Virus record (IMG/VR): IMGVR_UViG_3300030107_004705
Span: 1-36,885 of that record
Length of the DNA stretch: 36,885 nt
Origin: a virus
Strand: one strand, 5' to 3'
Both the position numbers and the translations under genes were made by a program. Positions 4,566 to 19,152 of the stretch are shown piece by piece. The stretch's first letter is position 1; each line of letters starts with the position of its first letter. Below the pieces are notes generated by a model, which ran no database searches, was not told the origin of the DNA, and was given only the letters and a program-made list of their open reading frames with translations.

Positions 4566-4594
4566 GGGTGGGCCCCGCCCACATGCTCTTCTCT
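4566..4594 (+). repeat. GC-rich palindromic repeat, copy 1 (long form)
   Basis: Its core is GTGGGCCCCGCCCAC, a 6-bp stem with a CCC loop, followed by ATGCTCTTCTCT. The 29 bases are identical in copies 1, 2 and 3. The GC block stands out sharply in AT-rich sequence. Downstream, an ACATGTTGTGT stretch resembles the ACATCTTGTGT that follows copy 6, so homology runs past the core. Confidence 0.9.
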
Positions 4595-4685: not shown

Positions 4686-4735
4686 ATTATCCTATAAAAT
4701 AATATAAGCTTATATTTATGAAAGGAAATAAAAAT

Positions 4736-5662
4736 ATGACTAAATCAAAAGAAACACTCAAGGCGTTTGTTGGTGAGGTTATCAATGAGATGATACACAA
4801 CAACGACAATTGGGTAAAAATGTTTGGTGATGAAAATTTATTACCGGCAACAAATGCAATAACAAAAAATAGATACAAAGGTATCAACTATTTTATGTTA
4901 GCTGCTACAACTAGAGACAAAGGCTATAAACAAAATGTTTGGGCTACTTATAAACAATGGGCAACAGTTGGCGCTCAAGTTACTAAGGGCTCAGAGTCTA
5001 CAACAATTATTTTTTATAAGCCGCCAATGTACAAAGACAAAAAAACTGGCAACATAATTACAGGTCGAGTTAATTATTCAGATCATGAAAAAGTAACGGG
5101 TCCAATAATGAGCGCGGCGAGCGTGTTCAATGTTGCTCAAGTTGATTTGTCTAATTCAAGTTACAAAGTAGAAGAGAAAACAAACACTCAATACTCTGTA
5201 GCTAACATTGACAAGTTCGTAAAAGATACCGGCGTTAAGATTATCTTTGAGGATGACACTAGATGTTATTATCAAGAGTCAGAAGATTTGATTAACATGA
5301 CACCAAAAGAAAAATTTCATGACACTAGCGACGCGGATGCGACTCAGCATTACTACGCGACTCTATTTCATGAATTAACTCACGCGACTAAACATAAGTC
5401 TAGATTAGATAGAAAAGCGCAGTTTGAGGACGACGCTCAAAAATCTTACGCTTATGAGGAATTAGTAGCTGAGTTGGGTTCAGTTCTACTGTCACAACAT
5501 TTTAATCAGACTAAGACAGTTAGAGAGAACCACGCTCAATACTTAAACAGTTGGATAAAAGCGTTACAAAAAGATTTTACTTTTTTGACTAGCGCCGCTC
5601 AAAAAGCATCAGCAGCTGTTGAGTATTATTTAAATCAACAATCAAAACAAAGGGCAGCGTAA
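4736..5662 (+). CDS. ArdC-type antirestriction protein with zincin metallopeptidase domain (308 aa)
   Basis: The N-terminal part (about residues 30-100) matches the ArdC ssDNA-binding domain family (ITKNRYKGINYFMLA, VWATYKQWATVGAQVTKG). The C-terminal part carries a HELTH zinc motif at residues 212-216 followed by KSRLDR and a downstream YEELVAELGS that can supply the third ligand. ArdC proteins are ssDNA-binding anti-restriction factors of plasmids and phages. An ATG 18 bases upstream (4718) gives six more residues, but that ATG overlaps the AAAGGA ribosome site placed 9 bases before 4736, so 4736 is preferred. The gene heads a two-gene plus-strand unit bounded by repeat copies 1 and 2. A 7-bp hairpin GGGCAGC-GTAA-GCTGCCC spans its stop codon. 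An early counter-defence role is inferred. Confidence 0.85.
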   Translation: MTKSKETLKAFVGEVINEMIHNNDNWVKMFGDENLLPATNAITKNRYKGINYFMLAATTRDKGYKQNVWATYKQWATVGAQVTKGSESTTIIFYKPPMYKDKKTGNIITGRVNYSDHEKVTGPIMSAASVFNVAQVDLSNSSYKVEEKTNTQYSVANIDKFVKDTGVKIIFEDDTRCYYQESEDLINMTPKEKFHDTSDADATQHYYATLFHELTHATKHKSRLDRKAQFEDDAQKSYAYEELVAELGSVLLSQHFNQTKTVRENHAQYLNSWIKALQKDFTFLTSAAQKASAAVEYYLNQQSKQRAA

Positions 5663-6746: not shown

Positions 6747-6778
6747 AGCGCTGATCCTAGATCAGCGCTTATTTTTTT
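6747..6778 (+). terminator. Rho-independent terminator after the 58-aa gene
   Basis: A perfect 10-bp stem AGCGCTGATC (6747-6756), loop CTA, GATCAGCGCT (6760-6769), then TA and seven T. Repeat copy 3 begins two bases after the T-run. Confidence 0.92.
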
Positions 6779-6779
6779 A

Positions 6780-6808
6780 GGGTGGGCCCCGCCCACATGC
6801 TCTTCTCT
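6780..6808 (+). repeat. GC-rich palindromic repeat, copy 3 (long form)
   Basis: Identical to copies 1 and 2 over 29 bases; again it directly follows a terminator and precedes the leader of the next plus-strand gene. Confidence 0.9.
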
Positions 6809-6887: not shown

Positions 6888-7472
6888 ATGAAACCAATAA
6901 GAAGCAACGAACTTGAATTCTTTAAAGAGTTAATTAAAGACAAGTTCAACGACAAGGAAGAAGCAGTTAAATCAGAAATCCACATGGAAGCTGATAAGCT
7001 GTCTCAAAAAAACAAAGCGTCATTCCCTAAGGCGTGTGGCGTGGATAAGGAGTTGAAGGTACTTAAAAAAGCAAATGATGAGTATTTAAACTTCAGAAGG
7101 TCTAAATCAACCGTGGAAGCAAAACTATTGCAGAAGGTTAGTGATATTGCAGAAGGTATTAGCAGTAAACTAGGTAGATTAGGCAAGACTAGACAATGGT
7201 ATGAGAGCTTTGATAACTTCAGCCCTAAGGAAGATGGGCCTGAATATTTTACTAATAAGCTCGATGATTTATGCTTTCAGGAAGCAGAAAAGCATATCAA
7301 GAAGGGCCATAAGATATATAATGCTCTTCGAGAGAAGCGAGATAATTGTAAAGTTATCATTCATACTGGTAGTGACATTAACAGTACAGTTAAGACGCTA
7401 CAAAAAGAAATGGCAACCGCAGATATACGACTTGCCATTCCTAACAACTTACTTCAATTAGCTTCAAACTAA
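6888..7472 (+). CDS. Hypothetical accessory protein (194 aa)
   Basis: A highly charged, largely helical protein with likely coiled-coil segments in residues 1-100 (ELEFFKELIKDKFNDKEEAV and later stretches). No catalytic motif, membrane helix or signal peptide is apparent. The ATG follows AAAAGGAG by 7 bases. The gene stands alone between repeat copies 3 and 4, with an AT-rich leader containing several TATCCTATA or TAGGATAA words and its own terminator downstream. I do not recognise the family. Its cassette-like setting suggests a transferable accessory function. Confidence 0.75.
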   Translation: MKPIRSNELEFFKELIKDKFNDKEEAVKSEIHMEADKLSQKNKASFPKACGVDKELKVLKKANDEYLNFRRSKSTVEAKLLQKVSDIAEGISSKLGRLGKTRQWYESFDNFSPKEDGPEYFTNKLDDLCFQEAEKHIKKGHKIYNALREKRDNCKVIIHTGSDINSTVKTLQKEMATADIRLAIPNNLLQLASN

Positions 7473-7478
7473 ACGACC

Positions 7479-7512
7479 AATGGCCCTCGCAAGAGGGCCA
7501 TTCTTTTTTTGT
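7479..7512 (+). terminator. Rho-independent terminator after the 194-aa gene
   Basis: A perfect 10-bp stem AATGGCCCTC (7479-7488), loop GCAA, GAGGGCCATT (7493-7502), then C and seven T. It ends the single-gene unit just before the repeat array. Confidence 0.93.
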
Positions 7513-7526
7513 TTTTTATTTTTTTT

Positions 7527-7628
7527 GGTGGGCCCCGCCCACAAGCACAACTCACAAGCAACAGGGAGGGCCCCGCCCACAAGCACAACCCACAGGCAGC
7601 AGGCATAGGGAGGGTCCCGCCCACATGC
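7527..7628 (+). repeat. Short array of the GC-rich repeat (copies 4, 5 and 6)
   Basis: Three units begin at 7527, 7564 and 7608. Each carries the GGGCCCCGCCCACAAGC-type core (copy 6 has GGGTCCCGCCCACATGC) followed by a related tail (ACAAGCACAACTCACAAGCA; AAGCACAACCCACAGGCAGC). Spacing is 37 then 44 bases. Copies 5 and 6 have GGGAGGG where copies 1-4 have GGTGGG, which weakens the hairpin stem. The units vary and there is no constant-repeat, unique-spacer pattern, so this is not a CRISPR array. Confidence 0.85.
7601..7628 (+). repeat. Left 28-nt direct repeat flanking the GC-rich RNA-like segment
   Basis: The 28 bases starting AGGCATAGGGAGGGTCCCGC recur at 8073-8100 with two differences (T/C and T/A). 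Together they bracket about 440 bp containing the structured RNA candidate. This copy includes repeat copy 6. Confidence 0.85.
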
Positions 7629-7696
7629 ACGCCACACTACATCTTGTGTCAATCACTTTTTAGTTGAAAGTTTTTTTATTTTTTTTAATTTTTTAT

Positions 7697-7725
7697 TTGA
7701 CAGAACCTTGGATCTAGGATATTGT
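7697..7725 (+). promoter_or_regulatory. Sigma70 promoter for the structured RNA candidate
   Basis: TTGACA (7697-7702), 17 bases, TATTGT (7720-7725). A perfect -35 and ideal spacing; the -10 is four of six. The start point would be around 7732. No ORF with a ribosome site follows, which supports a non-coding transcript. Confidence 0.65.
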
Positions 7726-7731
7726 AGGACT

Positions 7732-8030
7732 GTATTGTTAAGTTAATCCACGGACACCTCTGGCAAACACTGACCTCGTTTGGAGCTTTTCCGGTCGATA
7801 AATTTGTCAAAGCTCCAGGGTACCTGGATCGAGAGTGGTCGCACCACTCCTGATCCCTGGTCCAGCAGCTACGTGCCGGATAAGCTCCCGCGGGGCAACT
7901 GCTGGACCTGGGATCAGAATACTGATCGAGCAAAGCGCTCAGGCATGGAACCTGCAGTTAGTTCAACAGATAAAATGTCGGGGAATGGTTGGAACCCGAG
8001 GCTGCAGGCTAAGCCCTATTTTAAATTTTC
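7732..8030 (+). ncRNA. Candidate structured non-coding RNA, about 300 nt, family not recognised
   Basis: The segment is much richer in G+C than its surroundings, has no credible ORF with a ribosome site, and is full of compensating helices. They are: 7781-7789 with 7809-7817 (9 bp); GAGTGGT-CGC-ACCACTC at 7833-7849; a 19-position helix 7850-7868 with 7899-7917 (18 pairs, one U-U); an inner hairpin GCTCC-CGC-GGGGC at 7884-7896; CCTGCAG 7951-7957 with CTGCAGG 8002-8008, enclosing TCGGG 7978-7982 with CCCGA 7995-7999. A sigma70 promoter lies just upstream. The 3' end is uncertain: GGC-TAA-GCC at 8007-8015 followed by a T-rich run is a weak terminator. I found no tRNA, tmRNA, RNase P, hammerhead or group I intron core signature. 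Position between direct repeats suggests a mobile or cassette-borne RNA. Confidence 0.6.
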
Positions 8031-8399
8031 AAGGAACAAGCAACATGCGGAAAGGCCACAAGCCACAGGCGTAGGCATAGGGAGGGCCCCGCCCACAAGC
8101 GCGTGCACCGCGGTCCCTTCATAAAGTTTTATGCCAGAAGGCTCAAGGGCCTTTGGCAGGTATTTTACCATGATGAAACTGTTCTTTGGATGCCTAATAT
8201 GGAACGATATTTGATGTGGTGATAGCCTCGGAAACTTACTCAAACTTACTTTTAATTCAACAGTAAAAAATTTATTATATTTGTTGTATCCCAACAGATC
8301 TGGCGTACCATGAGCAGCAGAATTCTCAAGCCTAGTCCAGCTTATTTTACATTTATAGTCTTTGATTTGCTTCCAAAATTTAGACTCATTCTTAGGCAT
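8016..8399 (-). CDS. Putative PD-(D/E)XK nuclease with a repeat-derived C-terminus (127 aa)
   Basis: The first 95 residues look like a small VRR-NUC or Holliday-junction-resolvase-type nuclease: E25 in WTRLENSAAHGTPDLLG, D34, E48 and K50 in FTVELKV, and Q63 in PHQISFH. Such enzymes cut branched or flapped DNA during replication and packaging. Residues about 101-107 are encoded by repeat copy 7 (LVGGALP) and the rest by the 3' edge of the RNA-like segment, giving a low-complexity, Cys- and Pro-rich tail unlike a nuclease fold. The repeat seems to have replaced the original stop codon. Start ATG 8397-8399, with no strong ribosome site. The nuclease call is moderate. Confidence 0.65.
   Translation of the reverse strand: MPKNESKFWKQIKDYKCKISWTRLENSAAHGTPDLLGYNKYNKFFTVELKVSLSKFPRLSPHQISFHIRHPKNSFIMVKYLPKALEPSGIKLYEGTAVHALVGGALPMPTPVACGLSACCLFLENLK
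8073..8100 (+). repeat. Right 28-nt direct repeat, including repeat copy 7
   Basis: Matches 7601-7628 at 26 of 28 positions. It contains repeat copy 7 (8080-8100, GGGAGGGCCCCGCCCACAAG core) and lies inside the 3' end of the minus-strand nuclease gene. Confidence 0.85.
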
Positions 8400-8436
8400 T
8401 TTTTAAAGTAATTTTCAGAGTAAGTGTGGTTTAAAA

Positions 8437-8664
8437 TTAGTCACCAATCTTCTTCAAAACTTTACCCATATTCCAGGATTCAGCCTTGACCGTAAACACC
8501 AATCTATGACTCTCACGGTGACCTATGATTTTATTTTCTAGCAACTGTAAAGAAGTTACATCATAAAATTTACCGTCGGGTAAGCATACCTGCACCCTTG
8601 CATTTTGGGCGGAGGGAGATACCATCATCTTATCTAATACTTGACTTAATAACTTTCCATTCAT
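8437..8664 (-). CDS. Conserved small hypothetical protein (75 aa)
   Basis: Begins MNGKLLSQVLDKMMVSPSA. A TTG four codons upstream could extend it to 79 aa, but the ATG at 8664 is preferred. The body (VQVCLPDGKFYDVTSLQLL, ENKIIGHRESHRLVF) suggests a compact alpha/beta fold; I recall similar proteins in uncultured marine phages. A TTGAAA-16-TATATT promoter lies 11 to 38 bases upstream, so the leader would be very short. It diverges from terS. Confidence 0.7.
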   Translation of the reverse strand: MNGKLLSQVLDKMMVSPSAQNARVQVCLPDGKFYDVTSLQLLENKIIGHRESHRLVFTVKAESWNMGKVLKKIGD

Positions 8665-8704: not shown

Positions 8705-9223
8705 ATGGGAGTACCAAAAAGATTAACAGAAAAACAATTAAAGTTTGCCAATCTAATTATAGCTAACGAAGGTAGAAAGACAGCGACTGAGTGTGCAGTC
8801 TTAGCTGGTTATGATGAAGAGTCTGCTTATGTTAGAGCTTCAGAACTGCAAAATCCAAAGAAGTATCCGCTTGTTGTAGAGTATATAGGTAAAAGAAGAT
8901 CAGAGTTATTAAAGAAATACGACATAAGTTTTGATGGACATATGGTAGAGTTAGGTAAACTTAGAGATGAGTTTAGGGAAAACAAAGCCTGGACCGCAGC
9001 AGGTAATATGGAAGTTTCACGTGGAAAAGCTGCTGGATATTACAACAACCAACAAATACATTTACATAAACACGAAGGCTTATCGCAAGAAGAAATAGAT
9101 GCAAAGGTTGTTGAAGCTTTGAAACACTATCAACCTATCATAGACAAAGATGCAGAGGTAGTTACAGACGAGTTATCTTCTTTACCCAAGCCCGAGGAAT
9201 CATCGTCCGATCACCAAAAGTAA
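8705..9223 (+). CDS. terS: Terminase small subunit-like protein (TerS, 172 aa)
   Basis: TerS recognises phage DNA for packaging and hands it to TerL. The N-terminal 60 residues have the helix-turn-helix-like pattern of the Terminase_2 family: LTEKQLKFANLI, then TATECAVLAGYDEESAYVRA and LQNPKKYPLVVEYI. A central helical oligomerisation part and an acidic Ser- and Glu-rich tail follow. Length is normal. It lies over 4 kb from terL on the opposite strand, close to the early promoters. No good ribosome site precedes the ATG. Its last 62 bases overlap the 3' end of the convergent 95-aa gene. Confidence 0.8.
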   Translation: MGVPKRLTEKQLKFANLIIANEGRKTATECAVLAGYDEESAYVRASELQNPKKYPLVVEYIGKRRSELLKKYDISFDGHMVELGKLRDEFRENKAWTAAGNMEVSRGKAAGYYNNQQIHLHKHEGLSQEEIDAKVVEALKHYQPIIDKDAEVVTDELSSLPKPEESSSDHQK

Positions 9224-17483: not shown

Positions 17484-17722
17484 TTTTTCTGATCTTTTAA
17501 TTTTAACATCTCTAGCTGACAATAGTGAACAATCTTTTTAAGATCCTCTACTCCTCCTTTACGCTGATACCTGCAAACGTATTTAATAACGTTGCCTTGA
17601 AAAAACGAAAGATTATTTTTAGAAATAAACTCATAGGGTTGTATGGGAAACTTAGTGTAGTGATTTCCTCCTATCTGAGTAAACTGTGGAAATACCTCTT
17701 CAAATATATCTTTATGTGTCAT
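17480..17722 (-). CDS. DUF3310 protein (80 aa)
   Basis: The core GGNHYTKFPIQPYEFISKNN followed by GNVIKYVCRYQRKGGVEDLKK is the DUF3310 signature, related to T7 gp1.7, a nucleotide kinase-like protein. It is encoded between the helicase and polymerase with ATGA overlaps at both ends. A role in nucleotide supply for replication is likely by family knowledge. Confidence 0.85.
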   Translation of the reverse strand: MTHKDIFEEVFPQFTQIGGNHYTKFPIQPYEFISKNNLSFFQGNVIKYVCRYQRKGGVEDLKKIVHYCQLEMLKLKDQKK

Positions 17723-19152
17723 AAGTTGTAACCATGCCTTTCTATTTTTGCTCGCATTAAGTATAAATTATTTTTGCTACGAGTTATACCTACATACCAG
17801 ACTCTGTGTTCTTCATCTCTTTTCTTACTACTTTTTAACACACCTTCTCTAATTTTCCTAGCGTTATCCAACACTAATATTACGTTATCGCACTCTCCTC
17901 CTTTTGCTGCATGTATGGTAGATATTTTTATTCTTGGATCTTCTGTTAATTTTTCTTTGTTTGATAGTAGTAATCGTATGTAATTTTTATCTTCAAGATT
18001 TGCTTTATCAAAAGCTTCATACCATGGAACTAATTCATTCCAATTATCTTCTGACATATAGTCTTCTACGTCCTCTTTTTGTGTTTGTTCTAAATCTTCA
18101 CCATCTGCCCATCTAGAATAATACACCGCTGCTTTGTGCAACTTTGTATTAAAATTTTTAATGTATTTATTTTCAAATAAAAAACCTTTTTGTTTTATTT
18201 GCTTTGCAATCTCTATCGATTTGTTGATTGTTCTAGTTAAAATTAACCAATTATCTTTTGATAAATCTACATTTTCTAAGTTATTAATTTTTATTGAGGA
18301 ACCTTCTTCATTCTTTGGATAGTATATTTTATCTGCCCTTAGTCCCTCAATACGACTAATTATAATATTAGACACCTCTTGAATCTTAACAGGAACTCTT
18401 CGTGATTTTTTTAATACTACTTCTTTGGCTGGTTCTTTTATAAATCTATCAACATCTGCCCCCGCCCATGCATATATAGCCTGGTCATCATCACCAGCTA
18501 GATACATATCTTTTGTATTAGCTTTTAATATATCGTACATCATCCACTGTATCGGTGATAAGTCTTGTGCTTCATCTATAAACACCACATCAAATTTAGG
18601 ACACAAATATTTTTTTTCAATAAACTGATGAATCATATCAGTATAATCTATCAAGGCGTTATTCTCTTTGTACTTAAAATAATTAGCAGCTATGTGTTTT
18701 AATATACCAGGATTTATATCCTTATCGTATTCAGCCGTGCAATACTCATCCCAAACTTTTATATTCTTTTCTCTAGATTTTAATATGATCTGAAAGTATT
18801 CATTATCACAAGTTAAATAAGGTGACGAATCCAAATCTCTTTTTGCTTTTACACTGATGCTTAAAGTTTTTCCTATGTCATCATAGTGATAGTCTTGCAT
18901 AACATTCTCTTCTTTAAGTCCTAAAGTACGGAAAGCTAAAGAGTGTAGTGTTTGAAAATATTTAAGATCTTTTTTTTGAAACTGTCTGTTTTTATTTAAC
19001 ATTCTTTCTTTAGCAGTGTTGGCCGCTTTCTTTGTAAATGCAAAGTATCCAATGTTTTTTATGTCAGTGCCGGACCTCACATAGGCTAAAGCTCTTCTTA
19101 TTAACTTTTCTGTTTTACCTGTGCCTGGCGGCCCATAAAATTTTTTTATCAA
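17719..19152 (-). CDS. UvrD/Rep-like superfamily 1 helicase (477 aa)
   Basis: Walker A GPPGTGKT (7-14), Walker B FIDEAQDLSP (191-200), motif III-like GDDDQAIYAWAGAD (220-233), motif V STIHAAKGGECDN (411-423) and motif VI VWYVGITRS (451-459) are all present, so it is an active ATP-dependent ssDNA translocase. It probably unwinds the fork or serves recombination. The start is a TTG overlapping the primase stop as TTGA, so translation should depend on primase translation. The next gene is joined by ATGA. Confidence 0.92.
   Translation of the reverse strand: MIKKFYGPPGTGKTEKLIRRALAYVRSGTDIKNIGYFAFTKKAANTAKERMLNKNRQFQKKDLKYFQTLHSLAFRTLGLKEENVMQDYHYDDIGKTLSISVKAKRDLDSSPYLTCDNEYFQIILKSREKNIKVWDEYCTAEYDKDINPGILKHIAANYFKYKENNALIDYTDMIHQFIEKKYLCPKFDVVFIDEAQDLSPIQWMMYDILKANTKDMYLAGDDDQAIYAWAGADVDRFIKEPAKEVVLKKSRRVPVKIQEVSNIIISRIEGLRADKIYYPKNEEGSSIKINNLENVDLSKDNWLILTRTINKSIEIAKQIKQKGFLFENKYIKNFNTKLHKAAVYYSRWADGEDLEQTQKEDVEDYMSEDNWNELVPWYEAFDKANLEDKNYIRLLLSNKEKLTEDPRIKISTIHAAKGGECDNVILVLDNARKIREGVLKSSKKRDEEHRVWYVGITRSKNNLYLMRAKIERHGYNL

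Follow-up and report, generated by a model that had tools for sequence, protein, structure and literature searches.

Phage RNAs that form multimers and carry symmetric kissing loops are already known. GOLLD, which is found in phages, and OLE are RNA-only homo-multimers (Nature 2025, PMC12286853). ROOL, another phage RNA, likewise has such a loop, L18, which is highly conserved rather than variable (PMC12286853). The palindromes of the OLE loop L9.3 are GGCC, GAUC and AGCU, and the study of the OLE, GOLLD and ROOL structures argued from adjacent bases, as we do below, that such loops pair symmetrically between copies (PMC12286853). Retroviral dimer initiation and phi29 pRNA also pair copies of one viral RNA (PMC12286853), although in viruses and contexts different from the one described here. 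Flavobacterium-1 RNA (RF02976) forms part of transcripts like the one described here in Pelagibacter phage HTVC027P and at locus L057; it covers just one module and is absent from the DNA analyzed here.

The RNA described here resembles GOLLD and OLE in being structured and non-coding, with putative symmetric kissing loops whose palindromes covary. In contrast to GOLLD and OLE, it has no Rfam match (a difference from ROOL as well), is about 0.3-0.5 kb long and is a mosaic. Its palindrome is hypervariable and lies on an exchangeable module atop a constant stem.

The window, the whole stretch of DNA that was analyzed, is a 36,885-base virus record with genes for a portal and a terminase large subunit. 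By both terminase proteins, its nearest record in the phage collection is HTVC027P (53% and 68% identity), whose host in culture is Ca. Pelagibacter HTCC1062. The segment of interest sits among small gene cassettes between the two terminase genes, and in the lineage of the window the RNA gene is placed beside the terminase small subunit gene. Six plus-strand copies of GGGTGGGCCCCGCCCACA, with at most 3 mismatches, occur at window positions 4566, 5960, 6780, 7526, 7564 and 8080. They mark cassette junctions between the terminase genes, several of them after a terminator-like hairpin and T-run, and these repeats may keep the cassette region together. The cassette region also encodes an ArdC-type anti-restriction protein (PF08401, PF18818) at 4718-5662. 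The features of the segment and its surroundings are as follows.

7526-7650, plus strand: flanking GC-rich repeats GGNGGGCCCCGCCCACA, upstream of the RNA; another copy lies at 8080
7697-7725, plus strand: promoter TTGACA-17-TATTGT, the same one as in L002, L003, L004, L007 and L015
7732-8030, plus strand: proposed RNA, its start inferred from the promoter and its end from GCC and a T-rich stretch past the last helix
7772-7816, plus strand: 5' H-type pseudoknot, from compensatory changes read from the sequences; helix 1 pairs GACC 7772-7775 with GGUC 7793-7796, and helix 2 pairs GGAGCUUU 7782-7789 with AAAGCUCC 7809-7816
7833-7849, plus strand: small hairpin GAGUGGU-CGC-ACCACUC, from the centroid of the predicted fold
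7850-7862, plus strand: constant left arm CUGAUCCCUGGUC, from comparison with relatives
7863-7904, plus strand: exchangeable apical module, in which CAGCAG/CUGCUG lengthen the stem
7870-7894, plus strand: loop module UACGUGCCGGAUAAGCU, then the palindromic 8-mer CCCGCGGG (7887-7894), the proposed kissing loop
7905-7917, plus strand: constant right arm GACCUGGGAUCAG, with a U-U mismatch to the left arm
7918-8016, plus strand: terminator-like 3' domain, from an alignment of relatives and pair counts; a hairpin, then CCUGCAG 7951-7957 and CUGCAGG 8002-8008 around an H-type pseudoknot with helices CAAC 7964-7967 / GUUG 7988-7991 and UCGGG 7978-7982 / CCCGA 7995-7999
8705-9223: terminase small subunit gene

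A preliminary description of this segment, made from the sequence alone, took it for a structured RNA of unrecognised type that has its own promoter, and this reading is supported. The promoter it named is present, with TTGACA at 7697-7702 and TATTGT at 7720-7725 separated by 17 bases. Elsewhere, only 29 of 105 first hairpins have an exact TTGACA promoter in front; the opposite strand gives 17 of 105 and random windows 4%, and this promoter frequency is one of two weaker points of the confirmation. The RNA probably extends from about 7732 to about 8016-8030, with both ends inferred rather than measured. The markedly GC-rich composition also held: 7732-8016 has a GC content of 53.7% and the whole window one of 35.5%, and 0.26% of 285-base windows are as GC-rich. 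So did the pairing of 7850-7868 with 7899-7917, an inverted repeat that is 95% complementary. The predicted fold of 7725-8025 has an energy of -112.1 kcal/mol (z -3.66), which none of 100 shuffles reached, and the hairpin by itself gives a z of -6.9. The other weaker point is that the 5' part (7769-7815) has a poor nested-energy fold (z 0.19), which we attribute to its helices being pseudoknotted. There is abundant covariation, the check proposed earlier, in the hairpin; it is strong in the loop module and is found in the 3' domain as well. The main point, an exchangeable hairpin module with palindromic hypervariable loops, was invisible in that first reading.

A protein gene or a chance GC-rich sequence was considered and rejected. 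Mechanical open reading frames of 114, 79 and 82 amino acids overlap the segment. The loop is 42 bases long in the window and 32, 49, 62, 37 and 38 in close relatives; since some of these differences are not divisible by three, no frame survives across the relatives. The preliminary description had held that a conserved frame would refute it, and none was found.

Known RNAs were also excluded. No Rfam family matches the window at gathering score, and at E<=10 there are just far-below-threshold matches, mostly to microRNA models. ARAGORN finds neither tRNA nor tmRNA in the segment. The GOLLD, ROOL and OLE covariance models give no gathering-score match in the window and none at E<=10 in 7450-8450, and the Rfam models of group I intron, RNase P, hammerhead and twister, as well as RF02976, have no match in the window. 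Group I intron and HDV-like cores, weighed by eye, were dropped after the Rfam search at E<=10. The 5' domain may resemble the SAM-II and SAM-V pseudoknot riboswitches. Model searches lend this likeness no support, with 0 matches at E<=10 in a stand-alone copy of this domain (L297 1985-2060) and no SAM-type match in window 7740-7860, but models of this kind cannot score pseudoknots. BLAST of the window segment and of an L088 segment against phage records returned nothing useful, and a first exact pattern drawn from the 3' domain led nowhere.

A cellular RNA was rejected as well, with 0 matches to the exact hairpin pattern in a collection of 84,980 genomes. A degenerate pattern gave 4 matches in the same collection, 3 of which look like chance inverted repeats. 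The fourth (L308 362) is a credible hairpin with the palindrome CTCGAG on a 6.5-kb scaffold labelled as a Flavobacterium single cell; the scaffold could be phage DNA in that sample. This hairpin and the name of RF02976 suggest that the RNA also occurs in phages of Flavobacteria.

Comparison of loci shows the structure at the RNA level, its strand, its modularity and the covariation of its palindromes. We fetched 80 loci, each encoding a relative of the small terminase, and aligned 8 of the closest with the window. The downstream repeats are common to all and the promoter to 5, and the inserts differ. The hairpin with 18 of 19 pairs is a recurring module with a near-constant 13-bp stem (CUGAUCCCUGGUC/GACCUGGGAUCAG), a conserved U·U mismatch and a variable apical part. 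It is present at 22 of the 80 small-terminase loci and at 20 of the 31 closest, also occupies a second locus about 1.3 kb upstream (L002, L005, L006), and is doubled in tandem in L014 and L015. Pattern scans of viral contigs and the small-terminase loci identified at least 217 hairpins in at least 145 loci, with at least 185 distinct loops. Counts from the pattern scans are lower bounds. A second stem type (TTGAGCCC/GGGGTCAA; 26 hairpins at 17 loci) carries the same kinds of modules.

Changes in the arms are rare and concerted. The arms are identical in 159 of 217 hairpins, and compensatory variants include UCUG/UGAG, CUUG/UAGG and GAUC/GAUC. The 160 distinct loops in the pairing counts form 119 clusters at 70%. 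The apical bases adjoining the arms, which the search pattern left free, pair in 624 of 640 cells and use several pair types; pairs 1-4 inside the arms are standard in 160, 160, 151 and 153 of the 160 loops. Among the apical pairs beside the stem, G-U occurs 97 times and A-C 4 times, which indicates that the RNA is the strand with the U-U mismatch, the plus strand of the window. This count used solely hairpins with the U-U arm pair and excluded composite loops with a second arm and loops longer than 95 nt. The apical part can be replaced wholesale: the flanks of L002 and L004 are 98% and 100% identical, and their loops are 39% identical (45% when shuffled). Conversely, one loop can occur at different loci (L005 5097 and L006 3889).

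The loop module of the window consists of UAYGUGCCRRAUAANCU followed by a palindrome. This 17-base signature occurs in 23 distinct places across all loci examined, and the hexamer at a fixed position is palindromic in 21 of them, a figure obtained by testing the prefix alone. Six hexamers occupy that position (CCGCGG, CGCGCG, CGTACG, ACTAGT, ACATGT and TGCGCA). Both non-palindromic exceptions, L362 and L445, lack pairing flanks when judged by eye. In an alignment of 20 members, the 14 bases ahead of the hexamer are near-invariant and the hexamer is variable. An earlier outer-helix search had returned 27 matches, 7 of them without a palindrome and none of those with the TAY prefix; the alignment consists of the other 20. 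Across the 10 distinct rows the hexamer cells pair in 30 of 30 cases (shuffles 59.6%), with 11 both-side changes (shuffled 2.9±1.4; 0 of 500 as high). The central pair of a palindrome consists of neighboring bases that cannot pair within one strand, which points to loop-loop pairing between two copies. The module fits the criterion used for GOLLD, ROOL and OLE, a palindromic loop that covaries at adjacent bases. A weak internal helix of the predicted fold partly encloses the palindrome of the window.

Palindromes are enriched among the loops in general. With composite loops and loops above 95 nt again excluded, a palindrome of at least 6 nt occurs in 97 of 148 loop clusters (shuffles 59.3±5.5), and one of at least 8 nt in 52 (shuffles 17.6±4.0). 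No palindrome of 6 nt or more was found in 51 of the 148 clusters, including L004 and both loops of L015; hence either some loops do not kiss themselves or some have a different partner. Palindromic hexamers have a higher unpaired fraction than other hexamers (0.62 vs 0.49, p 8e-8), and merely 17 of 97 are wholly unpaired in the predicted fold. In 16 of 90 hairpins an unpaired run contains a self-complementary 6-mer, against 0.4 expected from pairing with the loops of other phages. Near-identical homologous loops can differ by their palindrome, as in L060 (CTTAAG) and L368 (CTCGAG), and homologous loops have different palindromes in L095 (TCCGGA) and L053 (TTCGAA), L101 (GGTACC) and L199 (GCCGGC), and L086 (TCTAGA) and L111 (CTCGAG).

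A separate search for the widespread module CUAUUASUG..GKGAAGAG gave 109 distinct matches. A palindromic hexamer is present in 41 of the 54 matches that have pairing flanks (shuffled 20.7±3.3) and in 12 of the 55 that lack them; several chance coding matches persist among the 54. Of eleven predicted 7-nt loops in this module, 8 have a palindromic hexamer and then a purine. Adjacent hairpins of one RNA rarely have a common palindrome, but chance sharing would be rare too, and this does not demonstrate orthogonality within an RNA. The tandem hairpins at L126 8633 and 8810 (reverse strand coordinates) have identical non-palindromic loops, and may pair via another partner.

The hairpin is flanked by two pseudoknot domains. 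Both-side changes in the 5' pseudoknot were read from the sequences of L002, L004, L097, L200, L320 and others. One search for this pseudoknot reported matches only if they were paired and serves as an illustration, not as a test. The 5' pseudoknot also occurs by itself, with a promoter before it and a start codon after it, at L262 ~6749-6795 (minus strand) and L297 ~2000-2042, a placement that, by analogy, could be that of a riboswitch or leader. The stand-alone copy of L297 has no Rfam match. In L003 (~237-520) and L007 (~2644-2925), a short reading frame beginning MKYISIYEAVREHGG (translated by eye) replaces the 5' domain; the hairpin lies shortly past its stop, and so the module can occupy the 3' end of a message. 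For the 3' domain, 98.4% of cells pair in 15 aligned sequences (14 distinct). Both-side changes occur in 5 of 23 pairs (shuffled 1.8), and the pairing is destroyed by sliding the partner. One helix is misaligned in the window row of this alignment, and for both helices of the 3' pseudoknot and the helix around them, the window row is the sole source of both-side changes.

The related transcripts are mosaics of a promoter, one to three hairpin copies and other recurrent modules with pairing ends. Another recurrent module, TTTGGTCGAGAC..TGGGTATGGTCCAG..CATCA(A/G)CCAAA, occurs in the hairpin-bearing transcripts of L124, L176 and L007. HTVC027P has the hairpin in an unannotated stretch between gp35 and gp34, and the 3' part there is RF02976. 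This homologous locus lies at about 17,720-18,190 on the minus strand of record MN698241. This family matches HTVC027P (L201 3909-4029) at 90.2 bits and L057 at 93.3 bits, and also matches L262. The genes gp33 and gp34, just after the hairpin, form their own temporal cluster and are highly expressed at 6-9 hours (ISME Commun 2025, PMC12753301). The words intergenic, non-coding and noncoding are absent from the main text of that 2025 transcriptome paper.

The best explanation of these observations, which we consider likely (probability about 0.72), is a phage-specific self-associating non-coding RNA. Its dimerisation, type specificity and role in infection are inferred from sequence alone, without expression, probing or dimerisation data. 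The promoter would drive a modular RNA made up of the 5' pseudoknot, a single hairpin whose constant stem displays the exchangeable apical module, and the 3' pseudoknot domain, which would also terminate the transcript. The apical module would expose a self-complementary sequence, and two RNA copies would pair through a symmetric kissing loop to form a homodimer or a larger homo-oligomer. The contact sequence would be free to change as long as it remains self-complementary. Since related phages differ in this palindrome, by replacement or by concerted change, the RNA would associate within its type and not with that of a co-infecting relative. During infection it may build a phage-specific assembly comparable to those of GOLLD and ROOL, or act as a sensor of its own copies. 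A bolder reading, less likely than not, is that the swappable palindromic loops are a type label in a combinatorial set of marine phage RNAs. Such RNA self/non-self recognition would, when phages co-infect a cell, restrict each RNA to assembly within its type, and competition between co-infecting phages would drive the diversification of labels.

Other explanations account for parts of the evidence. The RNA could be a variable-loop antisense RNA, in which the constant stem is a scaffold, the loop targets messages of the host or a rival phage, and the palindromes are a by-product. Wholesale loop replacement between near-identical phages and the third or so of loop clusters without a palindrome favor this idea. 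However, random targets would not preserve palindromes, as seen in 21 of 23 places in the module of the window with six sequences and 100% of cells paired, and we consider it unlikely. It is more doubtful still that the palindromes act at the DNA level, as sites for a restriction enzyme, methylase or recombinase, or as part of a DNA-hairpin element that spreads the modules. Six-base palindromes do resemble restriction sites, and the modules clearly move between loci and stems. Yet the 97 G-U against 4 A-C pairs beside the stem reveal selection on one RNA strand, and the palindromes keep a fixed place within the loop module.

A self-pairing loop could also sense copies of its own RNA in control of copy number or superinfection. 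Loop types set plasmid incompatibility, which provides an analogy. The self-complementary, type-specific loops, the promoter and the position beside the terminase small subunit gene fit this view, but we identified neither a target gene nor a leader that carries a matching loop, and HTVC027P is described as lytic (PMC11066056). We regard this explanation as improbable too. A self-associating RNA remains the preferred reading.

In the open-access literature searched, we found no description of a mosaic RNA whose self-pairing loops are hypervariable and exchangeable. Among the most abundant phages in the ocean are those that infect SAR11-type hosts (see also PMC11066056). A widespread phage RNA gene with no described function, and with no Rfam entry except for one module, provides a new annotation for many genomes. 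If its loops drive association, these phages would offer a rich natural collection of symmetric kissing loops, highly varied in their palindromes, and the question would arise of why phages need self-recognising RNAs. Since the cultured phage HTVC027P carries one such RNA, this question is testable.
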